This document shows positions 5,393 through 49,996 of a stretch of 64,000 nt of DNA, in pieces; the first letter of the stretch is position 1, and the number at the start of each line of letters is the position of its first letter. The DNA is from Cyanobium usitatum str. Tous. GTDB lineage: Bacteria; Cyanobacteriota; Cyanobacteriia; PCC-6307; Cyanobiaceae. The stretch covers positions 1-64,000 of the forward strand of contig NZ_PXXO01000004.1 of the NCBI RefSeq assembly GCF_003011885.1. The letters run 5' to 3'. Below the pieces are notes generated by a model, which saw nothing but the letters and a program-made list of their open reading frames with translations, did not search any database and was not told the origin of the DNA. Both the position numbers and the translations under genes were made by a program.

Positions 5393-6604
5393 TTAGGACT
5401 GAATCAGGCCTCCACCGAGCAGCACCTCACCGGCGTAGAACACCGCCGCCTGACCAGGCGTGATCGAAAACTGCTCCTCTGCAAACTCCAACCGCACCCG
5501 GTGGGGCCGCAGGGCTGCGCTATCGGCGTCGGTGGCGGGCAAGGGAATCAGTCGGGCCGGCTCGGGTGCACTGCGGTAACGCACCTGCACCTCCAGCTCC
5601 ATGGGCTCCGTAGGTGGCTCGATCGACACCCAATTCACCGCCCCCACCAACGCTTCGCCCCGGGCCGCCCCAGCGCGGGGAGCCACCACCACCTGGTTCA
5701 TCGCCCCATCAAGGCGCACCACATGCAGTGGCTCGCTCCAGGCCACCCCCAGGCCCTTGCGCTGGCCGATCGTGAAATGCTCAATGCCGTCGTGCTCGCC
5801 CACCACCGTGCCATCGGTAAGCACGATCTGTCCCTGGCGCGGCGGCAGGTAGGCATCGAGAAAGGCCTTCATCGAGCCGTGGTGATCGGCCAGGCAGAGG
5901 TCCTGGCTCTCGGGCTTCTGGGCCGTACGCAGCCCATGGCGCTCCGCCTCCAGCCGCGTGTCTGCCTTGGTGAGCTCGCCGAGGGGAAACACCAGCCGGC
6001 CCAGGGCCTCCTGGGGTAGGTCGTAGAGGAAGTAGCTCTGATCCTTCTGGCCATCTAAGCCGCGCAACAACTGGTGACGGCCGTTGTCGCTGCTGGCGCC
6101 ATGGCGCACCCGGGCGTAATGGCCCGTGGCGAGCCGGCCGATGCTCCGCTCGCTTTCAGCCCACTGGAGCATCGGCCCAAATTTCACCTCCCGATTGCAA
6201 CGAGAGCAAGGCAGCGGCGTCACGCCGGCCTGATAACCCTGCACCAGAAAATCAACGATCTGGGCCTGGAAGTGCTCGCGAAAATCCACCACGTGGTGGG
6301 GCACCCCGAGTTGCTCGCAGATGCCGGCGGCATCCACCAGGCCCTCGGCGCAGCAGGCACCCTTGCCACTCATCAGCCACAAGGTGAGGCCCTCCACCTG
6401 CCAGCCCGCCTCCACCAGCAGGGCTGCCGTCAAGGAGCTGTCAACGCCGCCTGAGAGGCCCACCGCAACGCGATGCTCCCCGGGCCAGGCCCGCAGCCGC
6501 TCTAAAGCGGCCTGGCCAGCGGGCGTAGAGGCAGGCGGCACAAAAGCGGAAGAAGCCACTGGAGCAGGCAAAGGGCAGACAGCTGGCGGGAGTACTCCCA
6601 TCAT
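5393..6604 (-). CDS. mnmA: tRNA-specific 2-thiouridylase
   Basis: MnmA puts sulfur on U34 of tRNA-Lys, -Glu and -Gln using ATP and a relayed persulfide. The protein has the PP-loop [13 protein letters not shown] near residue 50, the catalytic cysteine pair in [12 protein letters not shown] and in [11 protein letters not shown], and a C-terminal beta-barrel domain (about residues 290-400). It is about 403 aa from the first ATG at 6604. The first 30 residues are Ala/Pro-rich and poorly conserved in character, so translation may begin further in. It is divergent from nnr, with only 23 bases between the called starts. Confidence 0.93.
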
Positions 6605-47021: not shown

Positions 47022-47094
47022 GGGGCCATAGCTCAGCTGGTAGAGCACCTGCATGGCATGCAGGGGGTCAGCGGTTCGAATCCGCTTGGCTCCA
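47022..47094 (+). tRNA. tRNA-Ala (anticodon GGC)
   Basis: A 73-base gene folds into a full cloverleaf: acceptor GGGGCCA/TGGCTCC (one G-U pair), D arm GCTC/GAGC, anticodon stem CCTGC/GCAGG with loop ATGGCAT giving anticodon GGC, and T arm AGCGG-TTCGAAT-CCGCT. The discriminator is A; CCA is not encoded. It decodes GCC/GCU alanine codons. A terminator follows at 8 bases. Confidence 0.97.
47050..47071. repeat. Direct-repeat copy 1 (tRNA-Ala anticodon region)
   Basis: TGCATGGCATGCAGG plus GGGTCAG, within the tRNA gene. A 20-of-22 match lies at 49336-49357, on the far side of the AbiE genes. The first 13 bases are a near-perfect palindrome. Confidence 0.5.
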
Positions 47095-47102
47095 TTCCGT
47101 CA

Positions 47103-47131
47103 GACTCCTTGCGCTACAAGGGGTCTTTTTT
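47103..47131 (+). terminator. Terminator after tRNA-Ala
   Basis: GACTCCTTG pairs with CAAGGGGTC (nine pairs with one G-T) around CGCTA and leads into TTTTTT. Confidence 0.87.
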
Positions 47132-47243
47132 GTAGGCCAGGGGGTCGCTGGCATGCCCGGCGGGGCCGAAAAGCGTAAAATCAAGCTCAAAACTGAGGCA
47201 AGCGACGGCCCCGAATGGGTCCGGATCGGAATGGTTCGGCTGC

Positions 47244-48305
47244 TCAGGCGAGGGAGCGCGCGATGGCATTGCAGTGCTCCTCCAGCTGACTGATCCGCTC
47301 CAGCAGCTCCGGGAAGCTCGGGAACTCACCGCGCAGCATCCCTGAGTCAGCCATGGCCGTGTAGTCAGACTCCAGTGCCTGCCGGGCGGCATCGGTCGGG
47401 ACCAGCTGCAGGTTGCCGCTGAGGGCGTAGAGGTAGTCGATGGGCTGCTCATCGGCATCCGTGGCACGCCAGAAATCCTCCTTTTGCTGAGCCACTTCTG
47501 CGGTGAGGAGGCCATCGCGAACGGCCTCCTCCGCGATGCCTGCCCGGGCCAGGCGATCAAGGTCATACCAGTGCCGTGAATAACGGTCGCCCTCACCGCT
47601 GCCCCAACGGCCTCTTCGGCAGGAGACATGGATCGCCGCGGCCTTCTCCAGGAACGTGCGCTTCGGGTCCATCACCAGTGGCCTGGCAGTCGGGAAATCG
47701 AGCATGGCCAGGTGGGCGGCTGCCTCGCAGGTGATGGGCATCGGCCCATGCGGTTCGCCGGTGGAATGGGCACCGAACTCCAGCAGCACCGTTGGCCGCA
47801 CGTAGCCGTAGGTGCCCTCAGGCGGCGGGGTCAGCGGTGGGTAGTTGAGAACGATGGTGGGTGGCTGCCGGCGCCTTAGTTCCGCCGCTTTGAGCGTCAG
47901 CTTCACCGGGATGCCTGCGGCCGAGACAGCCCCTTGAAGCAGTGGCATGGGGATCTCGCTTACCCATTGCTTGAGCTTGCTGTCGGCGGCCTTACGGCGC
48001 CTTTCGGCCTGGCTTGGATTGACTGCCGGCGCCAGGTCGACATCCGGCCAGAGGTGCTGAATGTTGACGGTGAGGTCAACGTCCTCCGAGAAGCGGTCAA
48101 TCAACCCATGGGCCTTGGAGAGCGAGGTTCCGCCCTTGAAGGTGAGGCTCTGCAGGAGTTGCTGATCTGTGCCAAGGATCTGCAGGGCCCAAACCACCCA
48201 GATGTCCTTCTCAAGCAGATAGGCAGGCCAGCCGGATTCGGCAGCAGCCACCGCCAAGGCTTCCTTCTGATCCTCTGCGGAAAGAGCAAACCAGGACTCA
48301 GCCAC
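47244..48305 (-). CDS. abiEii: AbiEii/AbiGii family nucleotidyltransferase toxin
   Basis: A 353-aa protein with the nucleotidyltransferase motif FKGGTSLSKAHGLIDRFSEDVDL-type (GG-T/S then D-x-D), KRTFLEKAAAIH and SRHWYDLDRLARAG. These match the AbiEii toxin of type IV toxin-antitoxin/abortive phage infection systems, proposed to use a nucleotide to block growth (related MenT toxins modify tRNA). GTG 48305 is chosen: it overlaps the antitoxin stop by 8 bases and GGAGG precedes it closely; GTG 48335 would add ten residues. The gene follows its antitoxin on the minus strand. Confidence 0.86.
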   Translation of the reverse strand: MAESWFALSAEDQKEALAVAAAESGWPAYLLEKDIWVVWALQILGTDQQLLQSLTFKGGTSLSKAHGLIDRFSEDVDLTVNIQHLWPDVDLAPAVNPSQAERRRKAADSKLKQWVSEIPMPLLQGAVSAAGIPVKLTLKAAELRRRQPPTIVLNYPPLTPPPEGTYGYVRPTVLLEFGAHSTGEPHGPMPITCEAAAHLAMLDFPTARPLVMDPKRTFLEKAAAIHVSCRRGRWGSGEGDRYSRHWYDLDRLARAGIAEEAVRDGLLTAEVAQQKEDFWRATDADEQPIDYLYALSGNLQLVPTDAARQALESDYTAMADSGMLRGEFPSFPELLERISQLEEHCNAIARSLA

Positions 48306-49002
48306 GAACCTCCAGCGGTCCCTGATCTTGTTCACTGAGCAGCTCAGCCAGCCACAAGGGCAGCTCAGCGCTGACGGAGAGCAGGGCTTCCCATTCTTCA
48401 GGAGGCAGCACGGTTCGGAGCTTCGGCAGAACTGCTGAAGCCTGATCAGGGCCGAGCCAGGTCAGGGCGCGGATCGCCTGGCCGGCAGGGCGATCGGCCA
48501 GCAGGAAGTTCCAGGCGGCTGCCGTACGGATGGTGACCTGCTGCTTGCCGAAGACATAGCGCTTCTGGCTCCGGCTGCGGGACAGATAGATCTGCTGTAC
48601 GGGCATCTGGGTGGTGAGGCCAAGGGCATTGGCAGCGGCAGCACCACTGCTCACCAACTGCTGAACGCCCTCCTGGTTGAGCCAGCCCATCACCGCCTCC
48701 GGCGCCGGTGGTCTGGTGCCAAAGCGACTGCAAACGGGCAGGGCGTAACGGCCGCGGGTGATCTTCACAAGCTTGCCCCGGGCCGCCAGGCGCCGCAGGG
48801 CCTGGTCCACCGCATCGCGCTTGCCCAGCGCAAGGAACTGCTTGGCAGCCAGCAGGAATCCCTCAGGGCACTTGCCTGCCGCTTCAAGGATCTGCTCGCT
48901 CAGCACGGCCTTCTCGCTCGGAACAGCCTTCTCGCTCGGAACAGCCTTCTCGCTCGGAACAGCCTTCTCGCTCGGAACAGCCTTCTCGCTCGGAACAGCC
49001 AT
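48298..49002 (-). CDS. abiEi: AbiEi-type (DUF6088) antitoxin/regulator with N-terminal repeats
   Basis: A 234-aa protein. After the first residues, VPSEK+A is repeated five times. A winged helix follows (about 35-90: QALRRLAARGKLVKITRGRYALP), then the DUF6088 C-terminal domain (SSGAAAANALGL, QQIYLSRSRSQKRYVFG). AbiEi antitoxins repress their own promoter and neutralise AbiEii without direct binding. The ATG at 49002 has AGGA about 13 bases upstream. The repeat DNA may change antitoxin length without a frame shift, since the unit is 18 bp. Confidence 0.83.
   Translation of the reverse strand: MAVPSEKAVPSEKAVPSEKAVPSEKAVPSEKAVLSEQILEAAGKCPEGFLLAAKQFLALGKRDAVDQALRRLAARGKLVKITRGRYALPVCSRFGTRPPAPEAVMGWLNQEGVQQLVSSGAAAANALGLTTQMPVQQIYLSRSRSQKRYVFGKQQVTIRTAAAWNFLLADRPAGQAIRALTWLGPDQASAVLPKLRTVLPPEEWEALLSVSAELPLWLAELLSEQDQGPLEVRG
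48908..48997 (-). repeat. Five perfect 18-bp tandem repeats at the antitoxin 5' end
   Basis: GCCTTCTCGCTCGGAACA is repeated exactly five times (48908-48925 through 48980-48997) with a diverged copy on the gene-internal side. Each unit encodes six residues (A-V-P-S-E-K). Confidence 0.97.
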
Positions 49003-49031
49003 GACGCCTGGATAGGTCCTGTTATGTCCTG

Positions 49032-49065
49032 GGGTGTCAGGAGCCTACACAAGTTTCTGACACCC
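49032..49065. promoter_or_regulatory. Perfect inverted repeat in the abiE promoter region (probable operator)
   Basis: GGGTGTCAG (49032-49040) and CTGACACCC (49057-49065) are exact inverted copies with a 16-base spacer, 30-63 bases upstream of the antitoxin ATG. AbiEi proteins are known to bind inverted repeats in their own promoter, so this is the likely autoregulation site. Confidence 0.62.
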
Positions 49066-49423
49066 TGTCTACAGAGCTTTTGCCATCGCCTCCGTGAGAC
49101 CGGTGCTCTTGACTTGGCCGTCGACGCGCTCCGGGGCAGGTGATTGGGGTGGAGGGAAGAAGGGGCCCTCCATCGGCGTCCAGCGAGCGGGCGGGCAGTA
49201 GCGCAAGACCTAGCGCAAAAAAGCGCAAAACCGATGCATCCAGAGACATCCACTTGACCACAGATCTTGTCCAAATCGACTGCAATGCAATGGCTTTACC
49301 AGTGGCGATCAGGGGGCTGGAAGGGTGGCATTTATTGCATGGCATGCAGGAGTTCAGCCCTGGTTTTTTTGATGTTTGGCCGATGAGCTGCCGGGGGGCA
49401 ACCCACTAGCTCACTTAAGAAGT
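49066..49423. other. 358-base gene-free stretch beyond the AbiE promoter
   Basis: No convincing coding frame on either strand. It has AGCGCAA-type short repeats near 49199-49222, the tRNA-like direct repeat copy at 49336-49357, and a T run at 49364-49370 behind a weak CAGG/CCTG stem. It looks like the scar side of an inserted cassette. Confidence 0.5.
49336..49357. repeat. Direct-repeat copy 2 of the tRNA-Ala anticodon region
   Basis: TGCATGGCATGCAGG (15 exact bases) followed by AGTTCAG, against GGGTCAG in the tRNA gene. It could be a former attachment site bounding the AbiE genes. The palindromic core lowers the significance of the match. Confidence 0.45.
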
Positions 49424-49996
49424 TCAGCTAGAGCTGCCACCGTGGCGGGTCAAAGATTGGGGGAAGGAGTAGTCCTTTTCCCGAAACAGCGCCAGGCAAG
49501 CTTCCACCACAGCGCCGTCGAACAGGGTATTTTTGCCCGCACTGACGACCTCCAACGCCTCCACCAATCCTTTGGCAAAGCGATAGGGACGGTTGGCAGT
49601 CATCGCTTCTACGGTGTCGGCCACCGCCAGAATCCTGGCCTCGACAATGATGGCGTCATCCTCAAGCACGTGAAGGTAGCCGCTGCCATCGAGACGCTCG
49701 TGGTGTTGACGCACCGCCTTAGCCACCGGCCAGAGAAAATCAATTTCACTAAGCACCTCATATCCCACCTCCCCATGGCTCTTTATCAGAGCCATTTCCC
49801 AAGCAGACAAGGCGATGGGCTTGGTCAATAACTCTGCGGGAATTGCAATCTTGCCAATGTCGTACACAAGTGCAGAAATGCGTAAACCCTGCATGGTGCT
49901 TGCATCTAGGCCCAGCCCTCGACCAATCGCCTCGGCAAGACCCGCCACTCGGTGAGTATTGCCAGCGGCATATAGCTTCGCCAACCGAATAGACAT
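49424..49996 (-). CDS. HD-GYP-like protein with altered metal-binding residues
   Basis: A 190-aa protein with only an HD-GYP domain: THRVAGLAEAIGRGLGLD, SALVYDIGKIAIPAELL, HHERLDGSGYLHVLEDD and RILAVADTVEAMTANRPYR. In active HD-GYP c-di-GMP phosphodiesterases the second motif is HDIGKI and an earlier His lies in GHQ/GHS. Here these are Tyr (VYDIGKI) and Asn (AAGNTH), and GYP is GYL. It probably lacks normal catalysis. A stop codon lies two codons before the ATG, so no upstream sensory domain is attached. It may be a truncated, decaying gene. Confidence 0.75.
   Translation of the reverse strand: MSIRLAKLYAAGNTHRVAGLAEAIGRGLGLDASTMQGLRISALVYDIGKIAIPAELLTKPIALSAWEMALIKSHGEVGYEVLSEIDFLWPVAKAVRQHHERLDGSGYLHVLEDDAIIVEARILAVADTVEAMTANRPYRFAKGLVEALEVVSAGKNTLFDGAVVEACLALFREKDYSFPQSLTRHGGSSS

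Follow-up and report, generated by a model that had tools for sequence, protein, structure and literature searches.

We analysed a 64,000-nucleotide stretch of the genome of Cyanobium usitatum str. Tous (contig NZ_PXXO01000004.1, positions 1 to 64,000; hereafter the window) and conclude, with a probability of roughly 0.93, that positions 47095-49358 are what decay has left of an integrative genomic island that inserted at tRNA-Ala(GGC) and later lost its integrase. Sequence comparison reveals the target, both attachment sites, the empty site, a scar of the integrase gene and horizontal spread of the element, and we class the locus among decayed islands rather than autonomous ones. A sequence-only reading of this DNA had proposed that a cassette carrying an AbiE toxin-antitoxin pair entered at the tRNA. 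Three observations bear this proposal out: a close relative has the empty site, other genera have full displaced tRNA halves, and members of one integrase family lie beside copies of the sequence. Two refinements apply: the pair most likely arrived within a larger integrase-bearing element, not as a 2.3-kb unit, and the right-hand site was truncated on its tRNA side after arrival.

The target, tRNA-Ala(GGC), occupies 47022-47094 on the forward strand (ARAGORN; Rfam tRNA model, 66.8 bits). It is the only tRNA gene in the window and, by pattern search of the 2.5-Mb genome, is single-copy. Its anticodon stem-loop and variable region form the attL core (TGCATGGCATGCAGGGGGTCAGC, 47050-47072, forward strand), the point from which all displaced copies are identical. 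The attR (TGCATGGCATGCAGGAGTTCAGC, 49336-49358, forward strand) is the displaced 3′ half of tRNA-Ala, cut short beyond the variable region; its full version is present in G187, G265, G166 and L163. The two sequences match at 21 of 23 bases, the first 15 of them consecutive, in direct orientation and with 2286 bases between their starts; the repeat first described as 22 bases with 20 matches, 15 of them consecutive, is real and one base longer. The 13-mer core of the repeat was matched twice in the window and never in 100 shuffles, and the 15-mer core, of which many unrelated genomic copies would have spoken against the proposal, is not scattered but confined to these two sites in the whole 2.5 Mb. 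Between the copies lie abiEii and abiEi, a point on which annotation and domain searches agree with the first reading. A point against the island reading is that the attR of the window is only 23 bp long, with two mismatches.

Using the lexA-tRNA flank as a query against 40 relatives, we compared the regions downstream of the tRNA. A relative with the same site and 93% identical flanks (G005) has an empty site in which tRNA-Ala is followed by AAACCCAGGCTATTCCTGGGTTTTTTGATG; the order there is tRNA, TACCGAAACCCAGGCTATTCCTGGGTTTTTTGATG and then an HD-domain gene whose window counterpart lies at 49424-49996. Homology between the window and G005 ends just past the tRNA (47099) and restarts exactly at 49359, the base after the tRNA copy. 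The first host bases beyond the island (49359-49375, forward strand) match CCTGGGTTTTTTGATG of the empty site; they are what remains of the ancestral terminator of tRNA-Ala, namely its right arm and T-run. Between the tRNA copy and 49359 the window lacks about 41 bp of the empty site: the T arm, the acceptor strand and, with the first terminator half, about 19 further bases. The comparison with abiE-less relatives suggested by the sequence-only reading thus shows the tRNA joined to the far flank in G005, with about 41 bp of ancestral junction that the window lacks. A second copy of the repeat in such relatives had been named as evidence against entry at the tRNA, and none of those in the genus carries one. 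Two features of tRNA islands are therefore present: an empty site in a close relative, and an intact tRNA at one end with a displaced fragment of it at the other, which is truncated in the window.

Other relatives show further states of this site. In G012, of the same genus (L046, about 231-392), the tRNA is followed by the element terminator, 86 bp surviving from the 3′ end of abiEii and then host DNA, an arrangement that is a fossil of the same insertion. G001 (94% identical; L033, 2443-7207) carries a different 4.7-kb insert at tRNA-Ala(GGC), with the C-terminal remnant of a tyrosine recombinase and a gene resembling a subtilisin-type protease. The integrase remnant beside the tRNA of G001 gave no match to the integrase of G265 described below, and was therefore treated as unrelated.

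The same cassette is found at the same tRNA in a different genus (G187), where the displaced copy matches 47050-47130, that is, the whole tRNA 3′ half and the terminator. In G265, G166 and a Cyanobium MAG (L163), the right end seen in the window is likewise followed by a full tRNA 3′ half. The earlier remark that the T arm is not duplicated consequently holds for the window but not for these four loci, in which the copy includes the T arm and the 3′ end of the tRNA. These data bear on whether the repeat could be a chance match of the anticodon stem-loop, with abiE having come by homologous recombination or another route. The core is indeed nearly palindromic, as was pointed out at the start, and the copy is short and without its T arm, but the absence of a match as good in 100 shuffles and of any further copy in 2.5 Mb, the restart of empty-site homology exactly past the copy, the full displaced halves in these four loci and the presence of integrase genes adjoining repeat copies led us to reject coincidence, whose probability we regard as negligible.

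Identity of the abiE region is 95.5% to G187 and 95.2% to G265, compared with 82.1% and 79.9%, respectively, for lexA, the adjoining gene outside the element. Because abiE identity far exceeds lexA identity, the element has moved between genera and the host flank has not. An arrangement inherited vertically within the genus and lost from relatives such as G005 by clean excision might explain why G012 and G003, of the same genus, keep the left end of the element (G012 together with its abiEii relic), and an old partial presence is possible. We nevertheless hold this history to be very unlikely, as abiE is far closer to its counterparts in G187 and G265, of another genus, than the flanks are and sister genomes carry unrelated inserts at the same place. 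Of the carriers of the island, G265 is the best candidate for a whole parent, and its two ends sit on separate contigs. One (C57) holds the tRNA and abiE, followed by DUF499, DUF1156 methylase, helicase and KAP-ATPase genes that resemble HmaABC and PifA defence proteins; the other (C107) holds a primase, the integrase and attR. These are likely the two ends of one island. Relaxase or conjugation genes were not seen in the parent pieces examined (G265, split over the two contigs).

Among 400 family genomes surveyed, many have two or three direct tRNA-Ala copies on one contig, enclosing 2.2-46 kb. In the ten genomes that were read around the copies, with 4.6 to 46 kb enclosed, every distal copy runs from the anticodon stem to the 3′ end of the tRNA. 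From this shared starting point we regard tRNA-Ala(GGC) as an integration hotspot at which crossover takes place at or close to the anticodon loop, as is often the case for tyrosine integrases. G235 (L133, L134) and G157 (L135-L137) carry two islands in tandem at this tRNA, so that three 3′ halves of the tRNA follow one another; an integrase lies beside each distal copy, one of them with a stop codon. A second integration site is tRNA-Arg(CCT). In G015, of the same genus (L142), a relative of the abiE pair, at about 76% nucleotide identity, lies between this tRNA and a 29-bp copy of the tRNA-Arg(CCT) 3′ end about 2.2 kb away. Its sister G004 (L194, L195) has a roughly 62-kb island there, which includes a displaced 3′ half of the tRNA and shares its right flank with G015. 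No abiE was found in G004.

The ends of the element can be recognized in the window. At the left end, a terminator-like hairpin (TCAGACTCCTTG..CAAGGGGTCTTTTTT, 47098-47130, forward strand) replaces the ancestral tRNA terminator. Hairpins of this type also follow the tRNA in G187, G265, G306, G209, G282 and G003, whereas the empty site of G005 has a different one; as other carriers of the element share the type, the hairpin came with the element. Two direct repeats of the AGCGCAAAA type, 12 bp apart, lie about 75-90 bp beyond the tRNA (47172-47192, forward strand; AGCGTAAAA at 47172-47180 and AGCTCAAAA at 47184-47192), with perfect copies at matching places in G187 and G265. Three further repeats of this type are present at the right end (49200-49230, forward strand) and also in G265, L163 and G166, while the right end of G187 has none. 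Both sets are candidate arm-type sites, at which the integrase would have bound. The right end itself (49187-49358, forward strand), terminating at attR, is 87% identical to G265 (L146, 5776-5947) and L163 (809-980). Adjoining the abiE promoter, a leftover of the interior of the parent island (49127-49156) is 90% identical to the G265 interior (L107 oriented, 6552-6581).

A tyrosine integrase gene adjoins attR in G265, L163 and G166. The G265 gene, which precedes attR and starts 183 bp from the tRNA copy, encodes 425 aa (PHROG integrase, 1.3e-10), has the motifs GLFGLRPAEL, YSLRHGYAWR and GHNPATHHRHY by eye, and adjoins a Prim-Pol/PriCT_2/DUF3987 primase. The protein was recognized by PHROGs and not by Pfam or NCBIfam, and a genome scan with PF00589 missed it. 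Homologues are present in 159 of 300 family genomes. A copy of TGCATGGCATGCAGG lies less than 700 bp from the integrase homologue, mostly at 155-235 bp, in 29 of the 57 matches listed, and in 21 of the 31 listed with at least 45% identity.

What is left of this gene in the window is a 26-bp scar (49166-49191, reverse strand), 92% identical to the G265 gene (L146, 5153-5178; E 2.8e-6). It matches the middle of that gene, whereas 49187-49358 matches the DNA from the gene start to attR; these pieces share 5 bp (GCGGG) where they meet, which suggests a deletion at microhomology. So short a match gains its weight from position, order and orientation and from parallel scars elsewhere: in G187 another part of the integrase gene, 74 bp long, survives (100% identity), G209 has two further pieces, and the match scores of the scar segments of the window, G187 and G209 were each reached by 0 of 200 shuffles. 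In G166 most of the gene survives, interrupted by two in-frame TGA codons and by a break at which the reading frame changes. As the scars of the window, G187 and G209 differ, at least three genomes have lost the integrase independently, each through its own deletions. The statement of the sequence-only reading that no integrase is present is thus correct for an intact gene and incomplete with respect to the scar. An integrase gene inside the island, which Islander requires, is intact in G265 and reduced to this scar in the window.

The scars also bear on the nature of the mobile form. Compact attL-abiE-attR forms of about 2-2.3 kb exist in the window, G187 and G209, in two genera, and such a unit may itself be what moves, as an integrase-less passenger cassette mobilized in trans by the integrases of other tRNA-Ala islands. 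AbiE regions that are 95% identical between genera differing by 18% outside, AGCGCAAAA repeats retained at both ends in the window and cognate integrases encoded by many relatives would all fit this explanation. We nonetheless find it very unlikely, since the differing scars imply that each compact form arose by its own deletions, the arm repeats are gone from the right end of G187, the attR of the window cannot rebuild the tRNA, and the nearest homologue of the cognate integrase in the genome of the window is only 33% identical. Spread of one compact cassette as such is unlikely for the first of these reasons. Decay of a larger integrase-bearing island at the tRNA is the reading that we retain.

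Both genes of the AbiE pair are intact on the reverse strand and overlap by 38 bp. The gene abiEii (47244-48335) encodes the 363-aa nucleotidyltransferase toxin of an AbiE (type IV) toxin-antitoxin system (Pfam AbiEii, 1.6e-29; PADLOC AbiEii, 304 bits), and abiEi (48298-49002) its 234-aa antitoxin/regulator (DUF6088, AbiEi; Pfam DUF6088, 8.7e-19; PADLOC AbiEi, 175.5 bits). A nucleotidyltransferase with motif GGTSLSKAHGLIDRFSEDVDL, read in the sequence, thus stands next to an AbiEi-type regulator, as in AbiE systems of type IV. In that type, the antitoxin opposes a growth-inhibiting toxin to which it does not bind. NCBIfam gave no match for AbiEii, AbiEi or the G265 integrase, and AbiEii matched no PDB sequence at E 0.1. 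Values of dN/dS for abiEii against homologues are 0.15-0.28, and 0.15-0.34 over pairwise comparisons of AbiEii and AbiEi, so that the AbiE family is under purifying selection, although these values do not date selection in the window itself. The pair is presumably retained as an addictive or phage-defence pair and is predicted to be active. AbiEii/DUF6088 pairs are common on plasmids, all less than 60% identical. Viral contigs also gave pattern hits, and the AbiEii loci matched are only 43-49% identical. Within the stretches read, abiE loci of the family in G074, G173, G300, G221, G048 and G163 had no bounding tRNA repeat. Two variants were observed within the pair. The start of abiEi (48895-49000) contains about six 18-bp units, mostly encoding AVPSEK, of which G187, G265 and G209 have about three, a variable-number repeat in the N-terminus of the antitoxin. 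In G209 (L110, 3659-4488), abiEii is cut after about 75 residues with abiEi intact, and an ORF resembling by eye a RelE/ParE-type toxin replaces the rest.

Several known classes of element resemble this locus. Islander defines tRNA-integrated genomic islands by an algorithm that requires an integrase gene in the island (PMC4383910). The tRNA restored by the island, the displaced tRNA fragment at the far end and the tyrosine integrase family are as in these islands, but the window keeps only an integrase scar; Islander-type searches would miss it because the gene is required. Decayed elements termed CIMEs, classically 1.2-13 kb, keep att sites and cargo, have lost recombination and transfer genes, and derive from conjugative or mobilizable elements (PMC7563491). 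The residue likewise has attachment sites and cargo without recombination or transfer genes, its attR keeping the core and having lost the tRNA T arm; it differs from CIMEs in this truncation. The parent pieces examined, split over two contigs, show integrase, primase and defence genes and no relaxase. Tycheposons are described as picocyanobacterial cargo islands bounded by tRNA genes and carrying a tyrosine recombinase (PMC10872708, PMC11389934). The present island is like them as far as this description goes, and may differ in recombinase family and tRNA set. Finally, ICESsuHN105 is an integrative element that also carries an AbiEi/AbiEii pair, in which AbiEi helps to stabilize the element (PMC11062541); in the window the pair, known here from its sequence, outlives the integrase.

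We infer both the recombination event itself and the gene content of the larger parent from these comparisons. A tyrosine integrase would have recombined an attP carrying a copy of the tRNA-Ala(GGC) 3′ half with the anticodon-loop region of the chromosomal tRNA, so that the element would have supplied the 3′ half from the anticodon stem onward. The outcome would be a left end (attL) with an intact, chimeric tRNA and a right end (attR) formed by the original 3′ half, now displaced. The parent element would have had abiE beside attL, the integrase gene beside attR and other genes between, which in one relative probably include primase and defence genes. Deletions would then have stripped out the interior together with almost the whole integrase gene, of which the 26-bp scar is left, and a further deletion of about 41 bp would have cost the displaced tRNA half its T arm and the old terminator one of its halves. 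When the flanks of the window are joined at the shared core, ARAGORN finds no tRNA, whereas it does find one when the flanks of G187 are joined in this way, and also in the empty site of G005. Because the attR of the window is without a T arm and its joined flanks give no tRNA, exact excision would remove the single-copy tRNA gene. Such excision would now harm its host, as the tRNA is not regenerated, and the residue is probably locked in.

Decayed tRNA islands with a toxin-antitoxin pair are already known as a kind, and the interesting part here is the repeated reduction to AbiE. On a tentative reading, which we think has well below an even chance of being right, AbiE would repeatedly be the last pair left in decaying tRNA islands across these cyanobacteria, the truncated attR further tying the residue to its tRNA. 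This reading draws on the different integrase deletions in the window, G187 and G209 and on the AbiE-only residue at tRNA-Arg(CCT) in G015, and AbiE would outlast other genes because loss of the antitoxin has to wait for loss of the toxin. If true, the host can neither delete nor exactly excise the residue cheaply. The loci described here form a set in which one kind of element has decayed in parallel, including integrase-less residues that escape island finders demanding an integrase, and they point to tRNA-Ala(GGC) as a busy hotspot across the picocyanobacterial family and to its integrase family. Finally, this set allows testing of whether toxin-antitoxin pairs survive the erosion of islands.
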